This document shows positions 45,413-54,578 of a DNA stretch of 54,735 nucleotides, piece after piece. Each line of letters begins with the position of its first letter. Positions within the stretch are counted from its first letter, which is position 1. Location: contig ONHI01000002.1 of NCBI GenBank assembly GCA_900317565.1, positions 1 to 54,735 on the forward strand, written 5' to 3'. The notes under the pieces were generated by a model. That model was not told the DNA's origin. It did no database searches and saw nothing but the letters and a program-made list of their open reading frames with translations. Made by a program: the position numbers and the translations under genes. Source of the DNA: an uncultured Eubacteriales bacterium. GTDB taxonomy: Bacteria; Bacillota; Clostridia; Christensenellales; Aristaeellaceae.

Positions 45413-45579
45413 ACATCTTGTGTCAATACGCTCACTAGCCCCGGGCAATGACATGATTGCGAAGGTACTGACCACACTTTTGCAAAAGCATTGATCTTTG
45501 AGATATGCGGGCGCGCGCCCTCGGGCGGCTCCGCGGGCCGGTGGATGCACCGGCGATCGAAATTGGAGGGAAAACACTC

Positions 45580-46008
45580 GTGAGTACTTATATGGCGAAT
45601 CCCCAGAACGTCGAGCGTAAGTGGTACGTCATCGACGCAGAGGGCATGGTTTTCGGCCGCCTGGCTTCCCAGGTCGCTTCCATGCTGCGCGGCAAGCATA
45701 AGCCCACCTTCACGCCTCACTGTGACTGTGGCGACTATATCATCGTCGTGAACGCCGATAAGCTTGTTCTGACCGGCAAGAAGCTGGACAACAAGTTCTA
45801 TCGCTATCACACCGGCTATCCGGGCGGACTGAAGGAGGTCCCCTATCGCAAGCTGATGGCCAAGAAGAGCGAGTTCGCCTTCCGCGAGGCCGTTCGCCGC
45901 ATGCTGCCCAAGGGCCCCCTGGGCTACGCGATGGCCAAGAAGCTGTTCGTGTACGCCGGCCCCGAGCACAACCAGCAGGCTCAGAAGCCCGAAGCTTTGA
46001 AGCTGTAA
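45580..46008 (+). CDS. rplM: 50S ribosomal protein L13
   Basis: 142 aa, an early-assembly protein of the large subunit. Sequence typical throughout: [59 protein letters not shown] and [20 protein letters not shown]. The start is GTG 45580, 9 nt after GGAGGG; this matches the usual MSTYMANP N-terminus in Clostridia. Followed by rpsI after 19 nt. Confidence 0.97.
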
Positions 46009-46027
46009 TAGGGAGGAGGACGAAATC

Positions 46028-46420
46028 ATGAGTAATGTTTGTTTCCATGCTGTCGGCAGAAGGAAAAAGGCGATCGCCCGCGTTCGTCTGATCCCCGGTG
46101 AGGGCAACATCACCATCAACAAGCGCAACCTGGAGGAGTATTTCGGCTACGAGACCCTGAAAACTGTGGTCCGTCAGCCGCTGGTCCTCACCGAGACCCT
46201 GGGCAAGTTTGACGTCGTCGTCAACTGCAAGGGCGGCGGCTTCACCGGCCAGGCCGGCGCCATCCGCCATGGCATTGCCCGCGCTCTGGTGAAGGCCGAT
46301 GCCGATCTGAAGCCCGCCATCAAGAAGGCCGGCTATCTGACCCGCGATCCGCGCATGAAGGAGCGCAAGAAGTACGGCCTGAAGGCTGCCCGTCGCGCGC
46401 CCCAGTTCTCCAAGCGCTAA
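46028..46420 (+). CDS. rpsI: 30S ribosomal protein S9
   Basis: 130 aa, with the C-terminal tail reaching the P-site t[23 protein letters not shown] at the start, [14 protein letters not shown] in the middle and the terminal [17 protein letters not shown] are diagnostic. GGGAGGAGG upstream. Last gene before the strong change in base composition. Confidence 0.98.
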
Positions 46421-46900: not shown

Positions 46901-47211
46901 ACCGGCACCTCCCCTTGAAAATGGTGACTACCATTATATCACGACAGGGCTTTGGACTGGTGACAAAATGACGGAGATTTGGTGAAAGAGGTTTGCAAAG
47001 AGTAAAGTCCTGTTTCCCAAGGTGAGGGAACAGGACTTGAACCGTGCTCTATGAACGCCAAACCCCTTGTAATTACGGCATTTTCAAATTTTCATGTCTC
47101 CTTTTTGCGATTTTCGTGTCTCCTTTTTTGTAAGCGTTCGTTTCTGTTGATCTCACGAGAATGCAGCTAAACGAATAATTAACATTCTTTTTTTAGCGGC
47201 TTGTCATGCCC
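46901..47211. other. Intergenic region with hairpin and tandem 22-nt repeat
   Basis: Holds the XRE promoter, a hairpin (AAGTCCTGTTTCCC 47005-47018 with GGGAACAGGACTT 47026-47038, one bulge) and two adjacent 22-nt units, 47089-47110 and 47111-47132, that agree at 18 positions (TTTTCRTGTCTCCTTTTT core). No gene is seen. The repeats could be remnants of a mobile-element end. Confidence 0.65.
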
Positions 47212-47937
47212 TCACTCATATTGTTTCAGATATTTTGACACCGATCGGCTCATTTCCTTAGCGAAATCGGAGTTGTATTTCCGTTGGCAGAAGGCACGCA
47301 TCCACGATTCATAATCCCCATCAGCAGCCTTTCCACAGAACATTTCCCTCAGCTCAGCGCTGTCTTTGCGCCGATATTGGTTCTCCTGAACGATATATTG
47401 AATATCCAGGCGCTCCGGTTTTTTGCGCTCCTTCTGCTGCTCTGTCGGATAGCCGAACACCAGCAGGGCAGCGGGGAAGACGTACTCGGGCAAGCCAAGA
47501 ATATCCCGCTGAGTCTCCATGTTTTCCATGATGTCGCCGATGTAGCAGGAGCCGATGCCGAGGGATTCCGCAGCGATGACGGCGTTCTGCGCAGCGATCA
47601 GAGCATCGTCTACGGCCAGCAGCAGATCGCCTGGGCCGGGCTTGCGGGGCTTGCAGCCGGCGTCACGGAAAGCGTCGTACCATTTAAGGCAGTCCGCGCA
47701 GAAGACCAGCACCAGCATCCCTTTCGCGATGAAGGGCTGATGGTCGCAGGACTCTGCCAACCGGGAAAGCAATGCCGGGTCGGTCACGCGCAGGATGGTA
47801 TAGAGCTGCTGGTTGCCGGCAGTGGGAGCCATCGCCGCGGCGCGTAGGATGGCCTGAACATCCGTCTCATCTATCGGTTGATCGGTGAAAACGCGAACTG
47901 ACTTGCGTTCGTAAAGCTGTCGTATAGTTTCGTTCAT
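47212..47937 (-). CDS. Nitroreductase-family flavoprotein
   Basis: 241-aa FMN oxidoreductase of the NfsA/FRP-like group: QLYERKSVRVFTDQPI at the start (phosphate-binding Arg residues), AAAMAPTAGNQQLY, and AAQNAVIAAESLGIGSCYIG (the isoalloxazine-side block). It would use NAD(P)H. ATG 47937, with GAGGT upstream, is preferred over ATG 47949, which overlaps the Sir2 end. Last gene of the overlapping five-gene unit. Confidence 0.9.
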   Translation of the reverse strand: MNETIRQLYERKSVRVFTDQPIDETDVQAILRAAAMAPTAGNQQLYTILRVTDPALLSRLAESCDHQPFIAKGMLVLVFCADCLKWYDAFRDAGCKPRKPGPGDLLLAVDDALIAAQNAVIAAESLGIGSCYIGDIMENMETQRDILGLPEYVFPAALLVFGYPTEQQKERKKPERLDIQYIVQENQYRRKDSAELREMFCGKAADGDYESWMRAFCQRKYNSDFAKEMSRSVSKYLKQYE

Positions 47938-47945
47938 TTCGCACC

Positions 47946-48716
47946 TCATTGCATAGAATTGACCGTCGAGAGTATCTTCCCGATGCTATCGTGGAAGACG
48001 AGGTCGGCCTCCCCGTCCATCAGTGTTTTGCTCTTGTTGATGATCACCAGGCGACCTCCGCAGAACTGCCTTGCCAGCCCTGCCGCAGAGCCGACCTGAA
48101 GGGACGTCCCTCCGATGATCAGCAGGTCGGCGTCGCGGATCATCTTCTGTGCCTTGTCATGCGCTTCCTTCGGCAGGAATTCACCGTAGAGGGTGACATC
48201 TGGACGTACCATGCCACCGCACTTCGGGCAGCGTGGCTTGCCGGTGCTCTCAAAGATGAAATCCACGCCATAAGCGACGTTACAGATGGTACAGTGGTTG
48301 CGCCAGGTCGTCCCGTGGATTTCCTGAACATTCACGCTTCCGGCCTTCTGGTGAAGCCCGTCGATATTCTGGGTGACGACGCCGGCCAGCTTGCCGTCCT
48401 TCTCCCACTGGGCCAGAATCTTATGCGCCGCATTGGGTTCTACAGACCTTGCGTCCAGATGACTGCGGTAGTAGTCAAAGAACACGTCCGGCTCGTTGCG
48501 CAGGCATTCATAGCTCAAAAGGTATTCCGGCTGATAGCTGGCGAAACGCTTTTCGGTCTTATGATACAGTCCATCCTTACTGCGAAAGTCCGGGATGCCG
48601 CTCTCCGTGGACACACCCGCCCCGCCGAGGAAAACTGCGAAGGCGGCGTTTCGGAGCATTACCCGGAAGGCGGAGAGCTTCTCTTCTTCTGTCATGCGGT
48701 TAAATGGGTGCTTCAC
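47946..48716 (-). CDS. Sir2-family NAD-dependent protein deacylase
   Basis: 256-aa sirtuin. NAD site GGAGVSTESGIPDFRSKDG, VVTQNIDGLHQKAGS, the catalytic His in EIHGTTWRNH, a zinc site CTIC...CPKC, and GTSLQVGSAAGL. All residues for deacylation are present, so this is the classic enzyme type rather than a bare NADase domain. GTG 48716, with GGAGGG 7 nt upstream, overlaps the previous stop (GTGA). Substrate unknown. Confidence 0.93.
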   Translation of the reverse strand: MKHPFNRMTEEEKLSAFRVMLRNAAFAVFLGGAGVSTESGIPDFRSKDGLYHKTEKRFASYQPEYLLSYECLRNEPDVFFDYYRSHLDARSVEPNAAHKILAQWEKDGKLAGVVTQNIDGLHQKAGSVNVQEIHGTTWRNHCTICNVAYGVDFIFESTGKPRCPKCGGMVRPDVTLYGEFLPKEAHDKAQKMIRDADLLIIGGTSLQVGSAAGLARQFCGGRLVIINKSKTLMDGEADLVFHDSIGKILSTVNSMQ

Positions 48717-49171
48717 TGTTTTGCCCTCCAAGCATCGTGCGCGGCGATGTAATCAATCACCTCATCGTTGCTCATTTTCCTGTCGCGGAATTGCTCATGG
48801 GTGAAGGCAGGATCGCCCGTTTTGAAATTCACCTTGATAGTACTCTCATGGCGAAGGGTTTTCAAACGCCTGTGGTAATCAAACTGCCAGGATGAAACAG
48901 GCGTTAAGATGACCACAGACTCGTAAACGAAACGACACGCAAAACCCATCCGTTCACACTTTTCGACAATTTCTTGACGCAGAGTGGCTTCCTCTTCCGC
49001 TGCCCGCAGCTCTGCCATTGCTTTTCTGGTGAGAACACGGCTGTGCGGTGTTATCTCGCCGCATTGATTACATGGTCTGGGGAATGAATCACCGAAGCCC
49101 GGATACGGTTCATCAAAGGCGTATTGTTGCCGGGTATGGCAAACCGTACATTCACAGAGATAGTGGCGCAT
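48713..49171 (-). CDS. Zinc-ribbon protein of unknown function
   Basis: 152 aa. The N-terminus has Cys pairs MRHYLCECTVCHTR (C8, C11) and RPCNQCGE (about C34, C37) forming a likely zinc ribbon. A charged helix (KAMAELRAAEEEATLRQEIV) and a basic-aromatic domain (SSWQFDYHRRLKTLRHESTI) follow. The ribbon suggests nucleic acid or protein binding. ATG 49171 overlaps the HNH gene stop (TGATG), and the end overlaps the Sir2 start, so it is locked into this operon. No family recognised. Confidence 0.78.
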   Translation of the reverse strand: MRHYLCECTVCHTRQQYAFDEPYPGFGDSFPRPCNQCGEITPHSRVLTRKAMAELRAAEEEATLRQEIVEKCERMGFACRFVYESVVILTPVSSWQFDYHRRLKTLRHESTIKVNFKTGDPAFTHEQFRDRKMSNDEVIDYIAAHDAWRAKQ

Positions 49172-50631
49172 CAATTTTTCCTGCTTTCAATAATACGCTT
49201 CAATTCTTCCACGGTCATGATTCCATCTTTCTTTCGATGAATCATCCTGTGGCAATTGGGACACAGACATACCATATCAGTCGCGGGATTAGGCACAGTC
49301 TCTTCCTCCAAGCTGTACAGAGGCACGACATGATGTACTTCTATGAAACCCTTGCCAAGGTCGCCGTACATCTTTGCAAAGTCAAAGCCACAGACAGCAC
49401 ACCTGCAACCATGAATCCGAATCGCTTCTTTTCGGTATTGCGGCTTGCGCTCGTATTTGGTTGTATAATAGGCGATGCGTTTCCCTTCTGTACCAGCCAC
49501 GATAACGCGGGTTTCCAGATCGTTCGCCTCGACATCTCCTTCTTCCCGTACAGCGATTTTGTATTCGTCTACGAGGTACAATGAAAAGACAAACGAGTGC
49601 GCGTCGATCAAGGTGATCGTCTCAGAGATTCTTTCCTGCAGGAAATCCCGGACTTCTCGCAGTATCGCCATGTACAGTTGATAGTTTTCCCATGTACACC
49701 GGTCGGTACAGGTTGTCGGAGCGCCGAGCTTGAGCAGCTGCTTTGCAAACCATTGCGGCCGCATGACCGCGTATCGTTCCGGGTTCTTCAGGAAAAAGAA
49801 GTAGGATATAAATGCGAAACGGCCTCCAACCGCTTTGCTCAGCGCCTCAAAAGCGGTTTTTTCATCGTCTGTGGCAAACAGCTTGTGAAGCGCTCTTGTA
49901 AAGGGTCGCGTGGCTTTCATGTCCCAAATGTAATCCACGTCCCGCCAGTCCACAAGGTTCTGCTGGTTGTCCCAGCCTTCTGGAATGATGCGGAGGGCGT
50001 TGCCCGCAGCTTGGAAGACAGCTTTGCTATCCTCTATACCCGGATCACCCCAGGAAATAGCTTGCATGATGTCCTTTCCTTGTTTGGCAACATTATACTT
50101 ATACCGTTCACGGCGGGCGAGTTCGCCAGAGGCAAAGGAAAGCAATGCGGGATCGCCTTCACGGTGATACCTCTCCGTAAGGATACTTTCAACGGCATGA
50201 AGGCAGTATTCAGCTTTATCAGGTTTAATGTATAGCCAGATTCTCTTTGGACGTGGCAAGCCGATTTGAAGGCAGAGGGCGTCCTCCAGCTTGTACCATT
50301 CTTTGCAATCACGGATCGCTATCTGCTCCTTATAGCACAGTTCCTTCTCGCTCATACCCTCTGTCGGAATGCCGAGCCTCTCGTACAGAGGGTAAAAACC
50401 ATCCCCGGCATTCCCTGTTTTCTTATTCACGACTATGGCTGAAAGAAGCGGCAAGCCCAGTTCATGGCACAGAGCTGAAATATTTTCGATATTCCGGCCA
50501 ACGTTGAGAGGTATCACCGGAGTGCTGATGCGCTCAGCAAGAACGCTGTAAGTGACGGAGAATTCTTTGTTCTTTACAGCAAGCAGAAGCTGCTCCGCGA
50601 ACTGTCGCTCAATCTCGTTAAGTGTGCTCAT
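49171..50631 (-). CDS. HNH endonuclease with N-terminal specificity-like domain
   Basis: 486 aa. The C-terminal 75 residues are an HNH nuclease: CRCAVCGFDFAKMYG, IEVHHVVPL, then CLCPNCHRMIHR, i.e. two CxxC pairs framing the H-N-H metal site (McrA-like). The N-terminal part (NVGRNIENISALCHELGLPL, then LSAIVVNKKTGNAGDGFY) recalls a domain found at the start of other HNH and restriction-type proteins. The middle about 250 residues are unassigned. It may cut modified or foreign DNA. Start ATG 50631 overlaps the XRE gene by 14 nt. Confidence 0.85.
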   Translation of the reverse strand: MSTLNEIERQFAEQLLLAVKNKEFSVTYSVLAERISTPVIPLNVGRNIENISALCHELGLPLLSAIVVNKKTGNAGDGFYPLYERLGIPTEGMSEKELCYKEQIAIRDCKEWYKLEDALCLQIGLPRPKRIWLYIKPDKAEYCLHAVESILTERYHREGDPALLSFASGELARRERYKYNVAKQGKDIMQAISWGDPGIEDSKAVFQAAGNALRIIPEGWDNQQNLVDWRDVDYIWDMKATRPFTRALHKLFATDDEKTAFEALSKAVGGRFAFISYFFFLKNPERYAVMRPQWFAKQLLKLGAPTTCTDRCTWENYQLYMAILREVRDFLQERISETITLIDAHSFVFSLYLVDEYKIAVREEGDVEANDLETRVIVAGTEGKRIAYYTTKYERKPQYRKEAIRIHGCRCAVCGFDFAKMYGDLGKGFIEVHHVVPLYSLEEETVPNPATDMVCLCPNCHRMIHRKKDGIMTVEELKRIIESRKN

Positions 50632-51787
50632 TCTCTACATCCTCCAGTACAGGATCTACATAGCTGCCATCTTTCAACTTCTGGGTTAGGCTGATGATAT
50701 AGTCCAAGCAATCCCTTTTGAGTTGGCCGCCGTCTGATTGACATAGTTTTTCAAGACGATCGCAGTTTCTGGCAGCCTCATCTCCGAAGTCATTGCGAAC
50801 ATACCTCAGAAGGATTGTCGCCTGGTTCTTGATACTGAACAGACCAAGCCCGGACAGATAATGAAGTTCAACCTCATATTCTGGGATCAGTTCAGGATTA
50901 TTGGTGGATGCGTGTTCCTGTAACTCCAGTCGCGAGACAAGATCGTCAAGCCGACAGAGTGCGTCTGCTATGTCGCCTCGCGTCAATGAAGCCTTTACCC
51001 CCACGTAAAGTGTCGTGACGTTCTCGAAGTGGTGGGAGAAATCCTTGCCATACAGGTAATCCATAATCTTCTCTGCTGGCGCCAATGCTTGCAACTCTGC
51101 TGGCGTTGTTCCCTGCTGATCATACATATCAAAAACCGTGCGGCGAATGATATCAGCGCATTTATATATCAGCCTCTTTTGCGACTCGACCCGTTTACGA
51201 CCGGTTAGAGAAGTTGGCAGTAGAACTTCTTTTGAAGCCATTATACCGGATGCATTGTCTACGATTGACTTGGCACGTTCGGGATTATTCAGATCCTGGC
51301 AGAAGAAAGCCAGCATGGTTTTGTAGTGATCTGCATTCCCGCCCTTCTCTATGATGTCTTCAGCCAAAGAAGCCATCTCTCGAGTGATTGTGGGATCTTT
51401 AAAGCTGCCGGTGAGGCTGACATAGTGAGTGAGGATTTGGTACAGAGCTTCGCGAAGTTCGATGGAATCAGGATACTTCCGAACCTCATCCCGATATATG
51501 GCCAATTTCTCCGCCATCTTGGAGCCGTAGGGAGGGGAGAATGTCAAGGCGTTTTCCGCAAAGTCAGCTATATGCTCATGGTTCCGCGCTATATCAACTT
51601 CCAACAGCGTATCTGTGGATACAGAAAAGACATTCGCTATGGGGATAAGCAAGCTGATATCCGGCATAGCGCTGTCGTTTTCCCAACGGCTGATGGCCTG
51701 TGGAGTAACACTGAGCAGGTTGGCAAGCTGGTCCTGGGTGTACCCATTTTCTTTGCGAAGCCGCTTAATGGTAGAACCGAACGACAT
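50618..51787 (-). CDS. XRE-family regulator with helical C-terminal domain
   Basis: 389 aa. An N-terminal helix-turn-helix (GSTIKRLRKENGYTQDQLAN, VTPQAISRWENDSAMPDIS) is followed by about 310 residues of helical, TPR-like sequence. This layout is common in Clostridia, where the C-terminal part senses a peptide or partner protein. It is the first gene of the unit and overlaps the nuclease gene by 14 nt, so it likely controls it, as C-proteins control restriction genes. Confidence 0.88.
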   Translation of the reverse strand: MSFGSTIKRLRKENGYTQDQLANLLSVTPQAISRWENDSAMPDISLLIPIANVFSVSTDTLLEVDIARNHEHIADFAENALTFSPPYGSKMAEKLAIYRDEVRKYPDSIELREALYQILTHYVSLTGSFKDPTITREMASLAEDIIEKGGNADHYKTMLAFFCQDLNNPERAKSIVDNASGIMASKEVLLPTSLTGRKRVESQKRLIYKCADIIRRTVFDMYDQQGTTPAELQALAPAEKIMDYLYGKDFSHHFENVTTLYVGVKASLTRGDIADALCRLDDLVSRLELQEHASTNNPELIPEYEVELHYLSGLGLFSIKNQATILLRYVRNDFGDEAARNCDRLEKLCQSDGGQLKRDCLDYIISLTQKLKDGSYVDPVLEDVENEHT

Positions 51788-51831
51788 AGAATTACCTCCG
51801 ATGCCTGCCCCTGGCCAGCGGGCAATGGCGA

Positions 51832-51960
51832 TTATTCGTCCTGGACTGTCATCATTGTATCAGACAGCAATCGGGATGTCCAATCCTTTACCCGGAAGTT
51901 GAAGTCAACTGGAGGTTGATTGGTTGTCTTCAATAGACGTTTAAAATCCTCATTACTCAT
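51832..51960 (-). CDS. Possible 42-aa small protein
   Basis: ATG 51960 to TAA 51832. It begins MSNEDFKRLLKTTNQPPVDF and ends TMMTVQDE. Composition is protein-like (charged, amphipathic), but GGAGG is about 19 nt upstream, too far for a strong SD. It follows the HD gene by 14 nt and contains the XRE promoter in its 3' part. Could be a real microprotein or chance. Confidence 0.35.
   Translation of the reverse strand: MSNEDFKRLLKTTNQPPVDFNFRVKDWTSRLLSDTMMTVQDE
51854..51883 (-). promoter_or_regulatory. Promoter of the XRE-HNH-Sir2 unit
   Basis: Minus strand: TTGGAC (51883-51878), an 18-nt spacer and TACAAT (51859-51854). It lies 67 nt before the XRE start. Confidence 0.72.
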
Positions 51961-51974
51961 TTAACCGTCTATAA

Positions 51975-52403
51975 TCATTCCTCCAGTAGTTTTTTCAGCG
52001 CCTTGTTGTATTTCTTCTGTCGGTCTACGTCCTTAAGCGTGACATGTGGAATCCTGCTCAGGTTGCTGTTGTCGATCAGGTCGCTGATCTTCACCTGACG
52101 GGCAATGGGGTTGACCGCCACGCGATCCAGGTAGTCTGACCATGACTCGCCCTCTTTTCGACTGATGGCATCCACCGCGGCGGCGGTTTCCGGGCCGAAG
52201 GCGGTTTCAATGTCGTGAATGGTCAACGGGGTGTCCTCCACCGTATCGTGCAGCCAGCCAACTACCTTCGCTCCAGGGGCGTCCAGCCGGGCAGCGACCC
52301 TCTCCGGGTGCGTGATATAAGGGAGCCCCGCTTTGTCTGTCTGTCCCTCGTGCGCTTGTGTTGCGAGAGCCTTTGCGGCTTCGATGTCTATGCTGTATGC
52401 CAT
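51975..52403 (-). CDS. HD-domain hydrolase, SpoT/MESH1-like
   Basis: 142 aa. Motifs of the (p)ppGpp 3'-pyrophosphohydrolase fold, in order: ALATQAHEGQ (His18), GLPYITHPERVAARL (His32), VVGWLHDTVEDTPL (His52-Asp53, then Glu56-Asp57) and VKISDLIDNSNLSRIP (Asp near 115). No synthetase, TGS or ACT domain, so it is a stand-alone small alarmone hydrolase or a related nucleotide hydrolase. ATG 52403 has GAGGA 7 nt upstream; a longer reading to 52502 lacks an SD. It lies 111 bp from the ADP-ribosylglycohydrolase gene. Confidence 0.85.
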   Translation of the reverse strand: MAYSIDIEAAKALATQAHEGQTDKAGLPYITHPERVAARLDAPGAKVVGWLHDTVEDTPLTIHDIETAFGPETAAAVDAISRKEGESWSDYLDRVAVNPIARQVKISDLIDNSNLSRIPHVTLKDVDRQKKYNKALKKLLEE

Positions 52404-52514
52404 TGCTTTATCCTCATCCTGTATGTATAAGCCAAGTTTACCATAGGTGATGTCGCTTTGCAAGAAGCGTTTTTCCGAACTAAACAAAGGGCATGATGCC
52501 AAGCACCATGCCCA

Positions 52515-53456
52515 TCAGACGTTTCCGTCTGTGCAAAGGGATTCAATCCAATCGAGCCGCTGCAATGCCGCCAGCCAATCCTGGGGAATGGCGTCGTACC
52601 CGTAATACAGCGCTGCCAGACCGCCACAAACCGCGCCGACGGTATCGGTATCATAACCAAGGTTGACTGCTTTCAGCAGTGCGTCCGCGAAGCTGTCGGT
52701 GTTGACCAGCGACCACACTGCGGACTCAAGGGTATCCACGACATATCCGGTGCTACGGATACTGTCCTCCGGCAAATCGCCGAAGCTGTCGAGATTGCGT
52801 AGCCGATCATAGTATTCCAGATTCTCATGGTCAGCCAGATAAGCCTCGTAGAATGCAAAGCCTTTGTCCAACCCAGCCTGCAACCGATTTGTCAAGCTGC
52901 CTTCTTCATTCAGAATGGCAGAGGTCATGAAGTAGTAAAGTCCACAGGCGATATTGGACCGGATGTGGGCATGGGTCAGACTGCCGACCTTGTGGATGAT
53001 GTCGATGGCTTCGCTGTCGCTCAGATGATGCTGGATGCAGTAAAGCACTGCCGGCATGATCCGCATGAGGCTGCCGTTGCCGTTGGAGCGCTCATCGATG
53101 TTGCCGGCCTTGAGCGGCTTATGATACCGCTTGTACCGATGGATGGCGTTTATCGTTCCGCGCCCGATATCGTAAGAGTATCCGTATGGGGTGAACGCGC
53201 CGTCATCCAGCCATTTGACGAAGTTGTCCATGATGTCCTTATAGTCGATAGTACCGGTGCGCCGGATGCTCTCCAGAAGCGCCAATGTCAGAGAGCTGTC
53301 GTCCGTCCAGGAACCGGCAGGGAGGTTGAAGGTTCCGAAGCCCCTCATGCCCGTGACCGGGTGTTTCGACACTTCTTCTCTCGATTCAAACTGCACGGGG
53401 CAGCCGAGGGCGTCGCCGATTACGACGCCCATGATACCGGATTTCCACTTATTCAT
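52515..53456 (-). CDS. ADP-ribosylglycohydrolase-family protein
   Basis: 313 aa, DraG/ARH-type hydrolase that removes ADP-ribose from proteins, nucleic acids or small molecules. The Mg-binding residues are visible: GVVIGDALGCPVQFESREE, AGSWTDDSSLTLALLESI and, near the C-terminus, GYDTDTVGAVCGGLAALYYG. The SD (GGGAGGTGA) lies in the end of the VWA gene, 5 nt away, so the two are coupled. No ADP-ribosyltransferase is in the window. Confidence 0.92.
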   Translation of the reverse strand: MNKWKSGIMGVVIGDALGCPVQFESREEVSKHPVTGMRGFGTFNLPAGSWTDDSSLTLALLESIRRTGTIDYKDIMDNFVKWLDDGAFTPYGYSYDIGRGTINAIHRYKRYHKPLKAGNIDERSNGNGSLMRIMPAVLYCIQHHLSDSEAIDIIHKVGSLTHAHIRSNIACGLYYFMTSAILNEEGSLTNRLQAGLDKGFAFYEAYLADHENLEYYDRLRNLDSFGDLPEDSIRSTGYVVDTLESAVWSLVNTDSFADALLKAVNLGYDTDTVGAVCGGLAALYYGYDAIPQDWLAALQRLDWIESLCTDGNV

Positions 53457-53461
53457 TCTAT

Positions 53462-54112
53462 TCACCTCCCGCGCTTGCGCACATCCTCCTCGATGTCCTC
53501 CTTCCAGGACGCGCTCATGGGTGCGGCGCATTCCCGCATGTGAAGGACTGCTTTTCCGACGACGTCATAGTTCAGCTGCTGGCCGCGGTGATCGTTCTTG
53601 AAGGTGACGGATCTGTCCGCGCCGATGCCGATGTGGGCGGCCGTCTCGACAGCGTCGATGTTAGCCCCGAGGAACAAAAACTCCCAGCCGTACTTCTCCT
53701 TTTCCTTCTGCACCATGGCCTTCACCTCGTCGCTGCTGTAGCAGCGGCTGGCGTTCTCCATGCCGTCCGTGGTGATGACGAAGATGGTGCGTTCCGGGCG
53801 ATCCTCTTCGCGGGCATACTTGTGAACCATGGCGATGTGGTGGATCGCTCCGCCGATAGCGTCGATCAGGGCGGTGCCGCCGCCGACATAGTACTGACGA
53901 TCCGTCAGAGGTTCAATCTTACGCAGGTCGACCCGGTCGTGGATGACCGTGCTGCTGTTGGAAAACAACACCGTGGAGACCAGGGCCTCGCCGTCCGCCT
54001 GCTTCTGACGCTGGATCATGCTGTTGAAGCCGCCGATGGTGTCGGCCTCCAGTCCGGCCATGGAACCACTCTTGTCCAGGATGAAGACCATTTCCGTCAG
54101 ATTCTTTTTCAT
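53462..54112 (-). CDS. Von Willebrand factor A-domain protein
   Basis: 216 aa, essentially a single VWA domain. The MIDAS metal motif is DKSGSMAG (Asp13, Ser15, Ser17), with GGGTALIDAIGGAIHH and the later VITTDGMENASRCYS supplying the other MIDAS residues. No signal peptide, so it is an intracellular protein-interaction module. ATG 54112 has GGGAGG upstream. Coupled to the ADP-ribosylglycohydrolase gene. Confidence 0.9.
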   Translation of the reverse strand: MKKNLTEMVFILDKSGSMAGLEADTIGGFNSMIQRQKQADGEALVSTVLFSNSSTVIHDRVDLRKIEPLTDRQYYVGGGTALIDAIGGAIHHIAMVHKYAREEDRPERTIFVITTDGMENASRCYSSDEVKAMVQKEKEKYGWEFLFLGANIDAVETAAHIGIGADRSVTFKNDHRGQQLNYDVVGKAVLHMRECAAPMSASWKEDIEEDVRKRGR

Positions 54113-54143
54113 TGATAATCCCTCCCGTGTTTTGATGGTACTA

Positions 54144-54578
54144 TCATACACAAAACCGGGAGGGATCCAATGACCAATATCCATCTATCTCCGTGGCGGG
54201 AATATGATGTTGAAACCAGACATCAAGCGGTACGCCTCCGAGATTGAACACACATACCTGTTCCCATGCCTCCGCTATGCTGCGGCCTCCGTAGATTGGA
54301 GCTTGGAGAAGCTCGTCAGCGGTGGCAAAGTCTGCGCCATTATGCACATCACATCCGGTCCCGACCCAGTAGGGTCTTGGATTTGCCTTTGGTTCGCGGC
54401 TCTTCGGATCAGCTGTCCATTGGCTCCATGGGGTGGAAAGTATTGGAGTATAGCCAAGGATACACTCGCCACGATCCTGGTCATCGAGGAACATAAACCA
54501 GGTTTCGTCAATATTGTCCGGGCATTCTGTTAAGCACTTGCGGAACAAATCATAATCCATGTTATGCTTCTCTTCCAT
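54144..54578 (-). CDS. Hypothetical protein, Trp-rich
   Basis: 144 aa. No family recognised. It is rich in Trp, Pro and Asp (TPWSQWTADPKSREP, then RPYWVGTGCDVHNGADF), with no membrane helix or signal. GGGAGG precedes ATG 54578. The start overlaps the end of the M48 gene by 17 nt and the stop is 31 nt from the VWA gene, so it is part of the same transcript. Confidence 0.7.
   Translation of the reverse strand: MEEKHNMDYDLFRKCLTECPDNIDETWFMFLDDQDRGECILGYTPILSTPWSQWTADPKSREPKANPRPYWVGTGCDVHNGADFATADELLQAPIYGGRSIAEAWEQVCVFNLGGVPLDVWFQHHIPATEIDGYWSLDPSRFCV

Follow-up and report, generated by a model that had tools for sequence, protein, structure and literature searches.

The window analysed here, a 54,735-nt stretch of contig ONHI01000002.1 from an uncultured Eubacteriales bacterium, to which all positions refer, carries five minus-strand genes in a row at 47212-51787. 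They encode an XRE-family regulator, an HNH nuclease, a small zinc-ribbon-like protein, a Sir2 protein and a nitroreductase. The set probably combines a type IV-like XRE-HNH nuclease unit with a mobile segment carrying Sir2 and the nitroreductase, with shared transcription and no conserved common job. Gene overlap by itself does not make a system, and an earlier sequence-only reading, which had proposed that the five genes form one new system, gives way here to a smaller, testable claim.

The arrangement on one strand with the overlaps given in that reading agrees with the junctions taken from the sequence. The XRE and HNH genes overlap by 14 nt, the HNH and zinc-ribbon genes have a single base in common (TGATG), and the zinc-ribbon and Sir2 genes overlap by 4 nt (GTGA). 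The Sir2 stop is separated from the nitroreductase ATG by an 8-nt gap, and an alternative nitroreductase ATG would give a 4-nt overlap. As to the further proposal of one promoter, the promoter-like site at 51882-51854, just 5' of the XRE gene, scores best among 8 such sites in the 8.2 kb scanned, but the 8 sites observed are no excess over the 6.8 expected from shuffles. The five genes are probably transcribed together.

Recurrence was examined in 300 family genomes, one per species and many of them fragmentary; all counts include the genome of the window. All five genes occur together in at most 1 of the 300, because relatives of the XRE C-terminus are found in only two and the second of these, G224, has no match to the other four genes in the 12 kb fetched. 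Class- and order-wide genome samples were mostly negative. With one genome per species and many assemblies fragmentary, rare recurrences could be missed. The co-occurrence that the sequence-only reading proposed to look for is limited to a part of the set: the five were seen together only here, and the zinc ribbon-Sir2-nitroreductase trio stands together in three genomes of one genus, the own genome, G172 and G245. Relatives of the Sir2, nitroreductase and zinc-ribbon genes have other partners elsewhere, so that the scattering which that reading had named as telling against its candidate is largely what was found, and the claim of one five-gene system was not sustained. In the open-licence literature no paper was found on a set of HNH, Sir2 and nitroreductase (judged in part by title), on ADP-ribosylglycohydrolase-Sir2-HNH phage defence, or on an XRE/tetratricopeptide controller of HNH restriction-modification.

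The Sir2 protein matches Pfam SIR2 (2.1e-53), scores 272.6 bits with the NCBIfam NAD-dependent deacylase model NF001752 (cut-off 221) and has Sir2 deacylases as its best PDB relatives; its earlier assignment to the deacylase type is thereby upheld. The sole PADLOC match is at 0.0012 over 39 residues, none being to a Sir2 effector, and the PADLOC scan of ten genes, on a contig that ends upstream, gave no known partner of Sir2 NADase systems. The argument that the Sir2 and flavin enzymes are joined through the NAD pool carries little weight, since the relatives that this Sir2 matches are ordinary protein deacylases.

Of 28 genomes of the genus, 14 have Sir2 orthologs (at least 70% identity; 16 loci in all) and 10 have nitroreductase orthologs (at least 76%). 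Both are present in 7 genomes; the two genes are neighbours in 3 of these and sit on separate contigs in the remaining 4. At the 13 Sir2 loci outside the trio, the sequence within up to ~5 kb contains nothing that matches the nitroreductase, zinc ribbon, HNH or XRE, and 6 of the 7 other nitroreductase loci have no second member of the five within up to ~5 kb on each side; some of the loci fetched for both genes are cut by short contigs. Sir2 and the nitroreductase appear to be ordinary enzymes on a mobile segment, and a five-gene system is unlikely.

Comparison with the two other trio genomes supports the mobility of this segment. G245 has no XRE or HNH match beside the trio, and the first 11 residues are missing from its zinc-ribbon frame. 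Between G245 and the window, 46950-48549 is 99-100% identical in 8/8 blocks of 200 nt and identity is 95-97% at the Sir2 5' end and in the zinc ribbon, whereas the rplM-rpsI stretch at 45550-46349 is only 89.5-93.5% identical. G172 has the segment in a different location, 99.4% identical across 2.2 kb. Judged by these identities, the Sir2-nitroreductase segment is recently shared and would have moved recently. Sir2 and nitroreductase are intact in G245 though HNH and XRE are absent there, with pN/pS of 0.08 and 0.10 against 0.30 for the zinc ribbon; the counts are small (amino-acid changes: Sir2 2, nitroreductase 1, zinc ribbon 9). The tRNA-3'-like sequence at 47021-47043, where the segment shared with G172 has its edge, might mark a tRNA attachment site, but ARAGORN found no tRNA gene in the window, L032 or L050, and a scan of G000 allowing up to 2 mismatches gave no further copy of the sequence.

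Several observations weigh against a nuclease unit joined to an unrelated segment. The gene overlaps in the cluster are real. G172, whose trio is likewise without XRE, keeps only the last 28 HNH residues, just 5' of zinc ribbon-Sir2-nitroreductase, so that at least two genomes once had the HNH, zinc-ribbon, Sir2 and nitroreductase genes next to one another in this order. The G172 segment also lies ~1.3 kb from PbeA, SspC, SspB and BrxP-like genes (L032 1059-10674; 6.3e-243, 1.3e-130, 3.1e-58 and 1.2e-79, respectively), which by these scores are read as phosphorothioation-type defence genes. Together the HNH tail and the nearby defence genes fit shared descent of one mobile segment, possibly with a functional link. 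In an all-against-all comparison the 13 Sir2 loci have neighbours in common in 8/78 pairs. Because XRE C-termini evolve quickly, some relatives may have escaped the search. Finally, G287 has a 39-residue fragment of the zinc ribbon and, 0.8 kb away on the other side of an acetyltransferase gene, a distantly related nitroreductase (27%); this hints at a zinc ribbon-nitroreductase link.

Two of these subjects carry further detail. The impression by eye that the Sir2 neighbours all differ was partly wrong, given the pairs above; the common neighbours are most frequent in L110/L111, with single genes among L100, L101, L109 and others, and include none of the other four cluster genes. L100, L101 and L109 have a common neighbour of ~190-200 aa, methyltransferase-like by eye in L109. 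In G186 a relative (89%) of the G287 acetyltransferase lies ~2 kb from the zinc ribbon, so that a zinc-ribbon gene or fragment is found near related acetyltransferase genes in both G287 (L053 6831-8279) and G186 (L051 9131-12222).

In a genuine five-gene defence the XRE protein would sense or repress, the HNH protein would cut phage DNA, and Sir2 with the nitroreductase would change NAD(H) or protein acylation so as to aid the defence or hold it in check. The tight overlaps, the one promoter-like site and the HNH-to-nitroreductase remnant of G172 beside its defence genes would suit such a system. It is nevertheless quite unlikely, considering that the five are not together again among the family genomes, that Sir2 and nitroreductase are apart in 4 of the 7 genus genomes having both, and that the two are intact with few amino-acid changes in G245, where the nuclease is absent.

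The place of the small protein between the two parts requires separate treatment. It has no match in Pfam, PADLOC, NCBIfam or PHROGs, so the name zinc ribbon is taken from its cysteine pairs alone. Relatives were found in 9/300 family genomes, with at least 140 residues covered in 5, and in 2/291 genomes of the class-wide sample, the second match being weak. GC content is 48-50% for the XRE, HNH and zinc-ribbon genes, 56-57% for Sir2 and nitroreductase and 65% for the first 46 kb of the window. The shared GC class and the 14- and 1-nt overlaps could mean that XRE, HNH and zinc ribbon are a functional three-gene unit, the zinc ribbon serving as nuclease partner and Sir2-nitroreductase being the sole passengers. 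This is doubtful: G186 and G194 have a zinc ribbon with no match to any of the other four genes, HNH and XRE included, nearby, and the zinc ribbon of G245 and of G172 accompanies Sir2-nitroreductase, not the nuclease. In the two-part arrangement preferred here the zinc-ribbon-like protein would be translationally coupled to the nuclease but not tied to it.

The nuclease is recognised through its HNH part. It matches Pfam HNH (1.9e-5; 25.2 bits against a cut-off of 21.4), and residues 393-476 resemble EcoKMcrA (6ghc at 2.3e-7, or 7.5e-13 using a profile), with the profile search also matching 6yex and TagI 6ghs. A nuclease domain of known restriction type, one trait of type IV enzymes, is present by the HNH score and the EcoKMcrA match; as to a second trait, a known modified-base reader such as SRA or EVE, residues 1-133 and the middle domain have no Pfam match. 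The PADLOC mREase_IV match is restricted to the HNH part. No methylase was found among the ten genes scanned around the cluster, the contig ending at 54735. In the family 33/300 genomes match the nuclease query, at full length in the own genome alone, and most of the other matches cover the HNH part or single pieces. Residues 1-128, for which the AlphaFold2 model of the N-terminal part is poor, recur in G128 at 59% identity, joined directly to HNH, with an AbiEii gene nearby. The XRE-HNH pair is plausibly a restriction unit of known kind with an unmodelled domain.

That domain, residues 131-366, is predicted to be all-helical in a confident AlphaFold2 model (pLDDT 92.5, pTM 0.90). No Pfam or PADLOC model matches any of its 33 members (0/33), and one PHROG matches 1/33. 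The best PDB sequence match is only at E 0.41, and Foldseek gives no match at E 0.001. An HhH-GPD DNA glycosylase fold, to which weak Foldseek hints pointed (MutY/SsOgg; 3n5n prob 0.25, 3fhg prob 0.20), was not supported: hhalign probability is at most 0.5% against Nth, MutY and a third HhH-GPD group, and control pairs give 97.7% and 95.6%.

A scan of one genome per species gave 36 loci of the middle domain, in records titled as Bacillota, Bacteroidota, Cyanobacteria, Proteobacteria, Chloroflexi and other groups. Five of the 36 (L121, L122, L126, L133, L136) are contigs that seeded the search, many are metagenome bins, L126 and L129 are near-duplicates in the part seen, and L148, titled Methanobrevibacter, appears bacterial by eye. 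A strict HNH motif follows the domain in 12/36 loci. Pfam scans of 22 proteins of one alignment found HNH in 13 and HNH_2 in 12 (overlapping sets). Seven proteins scanned separately gave 3 NOV_C, 2 MrcB_N, 1 HNH and 1 with no domain; the two with MrcB_N have AAA scores about at the cut-off, and L122 is counted in both the seven and the 22. By these matches the middle domain recurs in restriction-type enzymes of many phyla, fused to HNH, HNH_2, NOV_C or MrcB_N.

PADLOC matches to restriction, BREX, Dnd or Orf5-type genes lie near 7/8 middle-domain loci sampled; the eight were picked by eye from the 36, so this is not an unbiased rate, and at the eighth, L128, the scan covered the protein itself only. 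Type I restriction genes are found in L144, L149 and L151, DndC and PbeC/DndD in L148, DndB in L137, HEC-06/Orf5 in L154, and BrxH-PglZ-BrxA genes with a middle-domain HNH nuclease in L126 (1047-11147). L126 also encodes a 1241-aa protein without PADLOC match and may be a BREX variant.

HNH nucleases include homing enzymes, and the distribution here is patchy, which would agree with a homing or selfish endonuclease rather than a restriction enzyme. Such an origin is very improbable in view of the NOV_C and MrcB_N modules with which the middle domain is found again, the type I, BREX and Dnd genes near the sampled loci, and the XRE relative that leads an EcoRI-type methylase-HNH protein. It is conceivable, at a tentative level, that the middle domain is an unrecognised DNA- or modification-sensing specificity module of many restriction-type enzymes, which would work here in an XRE-controlled, methylase-less unit that captured a modulating mobile Sir2-nitroreductase pair.

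The XRE protein matches HTH_3 in Pfam (4.3e-15, above cut-off). Its C-terminus has no Pfam match even at E 10, and the earlier description as TPR-type was accordingly not confirmed; that an XRE regulator leads a restriction-type nuclease is borne out by gene order, Pfam domains and the 14-nt overlap. In the order-wide sample 1/297 genomes matched the C-terminus. The relative in G224 is 41% identical over 347 aa and 39% overall, with 55/64 of the first residues identical and the remainder much less conserved. It is followed by a protein in which EcoRI_methylase (1.1e-119) and HNH are fused (L099 2511-5171), so that an HNH-bearing protein follows the XRE gene in both genomes where this XRE is seen, two cases only. 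The 12 kb fetched around the G224 relative contains no match to the remaining nine window proteins.

Searches of mobile elements yielded little. Matches to the nuclease were found in 201 plasmid records, never across 80% of its length; the query minus the HNH part matches one record (28.5%), and the XRE C-terminus has no match in plasmid records. Seven records of a phage collection match the nuclease. The best, MT836682, covers 66% of the query and holds a middle-domain-HNH protein (41% identity over residues 160-481) with none of the other nine window proteins; it is an unverified faecal scaffold with bacterial chromosomal genes by eye, and so looks bacterial. In viral contigs, single-protein scans with nuclease residues 1-377, the zinc ribbon and XRE confirmed no relative. 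Alignment scans of the same contigs found 1 middle-domain relative, none for the nuclease N-terminal part or the zinc ribbon, and 21 XRE matches, of which 19 end within the first 83 residues and two extend to 119.

Upstream of the XRE gene, toward the contig end and on the same strand, lie genes for an HD-domain protein (HD_4), an ADP-ribosylglycohydrolase and a VWA protein, and a 144-aa open reading frame; the last three span 52515-54578. In L113 a relative of the 144-aa frame directly adjoins the nitroreductase ortholog. Orthologs of the ADP-ribosylglycohydrolase (at least 73%, two partial) occur in 6/28 genus genomes. These neighbours could, with Sir2 and the nitroreductase, form a mobile NAD/ADP-ribose-linked accessory array into which XRE-HNH-zinc ribbon inserted. 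All the genes are on one strand, the XRE-HNH-zinc ribbon part differs in GC, and PHROG matches are strong for VWA, ADP-ribosylglycohydrolase, HD_4 and Sir2. A 70-nt stretch 5' of HD_4 (52396-52465) is 87% identical to L032 11898-11967, just 5' of the HNH tail in G172, and on another G172 contig, L102, a Sir2 ortholog has an HD_4 relative (78%) ~3 kb away, which puts HD_4 and Sir2 on one contig in 2/6 genomes having both. The array is still rather unlikely. In the other 4/6 genomes HD_4 and Sir2 are on different contigs, the ADP-ribosylglycohydrolase ortholog is on a contig other than that of the Sir2 ortholog in G234 and G209, and G172 and G245 have no match to it; the leader, at 87% against 99.4% for the trio, need not have moved with the trio. 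Positions are collected in Table 1.

Table 1. Features at and around the XRE-HNH cluster, in window positions.
Feature	Position	Strand	Basis or remark
XRE-family regulator, 389 aa	50618..51787	-	HTH_3; long C-terminus without Pfam match
Three-part nuclease, 486 aa	49171..50631	-	N-terminal part 1-129, all-helical domain ~131-366, C-terminal McrA-like HNH
Nuclease middle domain, residues 131-366	49534..50241	-	Recurrence; AlphaFold2 model
Small cysteine-rich (zinc-ribbon-like) protein, 152 aa	48713..49171 (ATG at 49171)	-	Cysteine pairs
Sir2 NAD-dependent deacylase	47946..48716 (GTG start at 48716)	-	Pfam, NCBIfam
NfsA/NfrA-type nitroreductase or flavin reductase	47212..47937 (ATG at 47937)	-	Pfam Nitroreductase 1e-22
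Promoter-like site TGGACA-17-TACAAT, extended -10, 5' of XRE	51854..51882	-	Consensus scan
tRNA-3'-end-like sequence	47021..47043	-	Edge of G172-shared segment; tRNA likeness is a reading by eye
HD_4 phosphohydrolase-like gene, upstream, unit membership not clear	51975..52502	-	Pfam
ADP-ribosylglycohydrolase, upstream neighbour	52515..53456	-	Pfam/NCBIfam scans
VWA-domain protein, upstream neighbour	53462..54112	-	Pfam scores slightly below cut-off

Taken as a nuclease unit with a mobile segment beside it, the cluster may work as follows. XRE-HNH would be a restriction-type unit that regulates itself, with the operon probably expressed under the control of the XRE protein. Through its middle domain, and perhaps also its N-terminal part, the HNH protein probably recognises certain DNA, which may be modified, and the DNA so recognised would then be cut by the McrA-type HNH domain; in this the nuclease would be akin to type IV or methylase-less restriction enzymes. 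Sir2, as a deacylase, and the flavin nitroreductase would be general enzymes of a recently mobile segment that came to lie downstream. The wider interest is in the nuclease, one of whose domains has no Pfam or PADLOC model and is found again in restriction-type enzymes across many phyla. Should this domain be a specificity module, a set of uncharacterised restriction enzymes could be open to biochemical tests.

Sir2 NADases of defence include Thoeris ThsA and DSR2. The window Sir2 is of the same family and uses NAD, but unlike these it scores as a protein deacylase over the curated cut-off. In controller-protein restriction-modification systems the C protein leads the nuclease. The window resembles them in that the XRE gene lies 5' of and overlaps the nuclease gene, and in that a relative of this XRE leads the EcoRI_methylase-HNH fusion of G224; it differs in the 389-aa length of the XRE protein, with its long C-terminus, and in having no methylase in the ten genes scanned. 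The G224 pair itself is alike in the related XRE and the HNH-bearing protein that follows, and unlike in the fusion of HNH to a methylase and in that nothing in the 12 kb fetched matches the zinc ribbon, Sir2 or the nitroreductase. PMC7145662 describes EcoKMcrA as an N-terminal recognition part with a C-terminal HNH. As in this and other McrA-type enzymes, the window nuclease has a C-terminal HNH, matching theirs, with an N-terminal part before it; the sequence match is limited to the HNH, and in place of NEco the window nuclease has its own N-terminal part and the all-helical middle domain.

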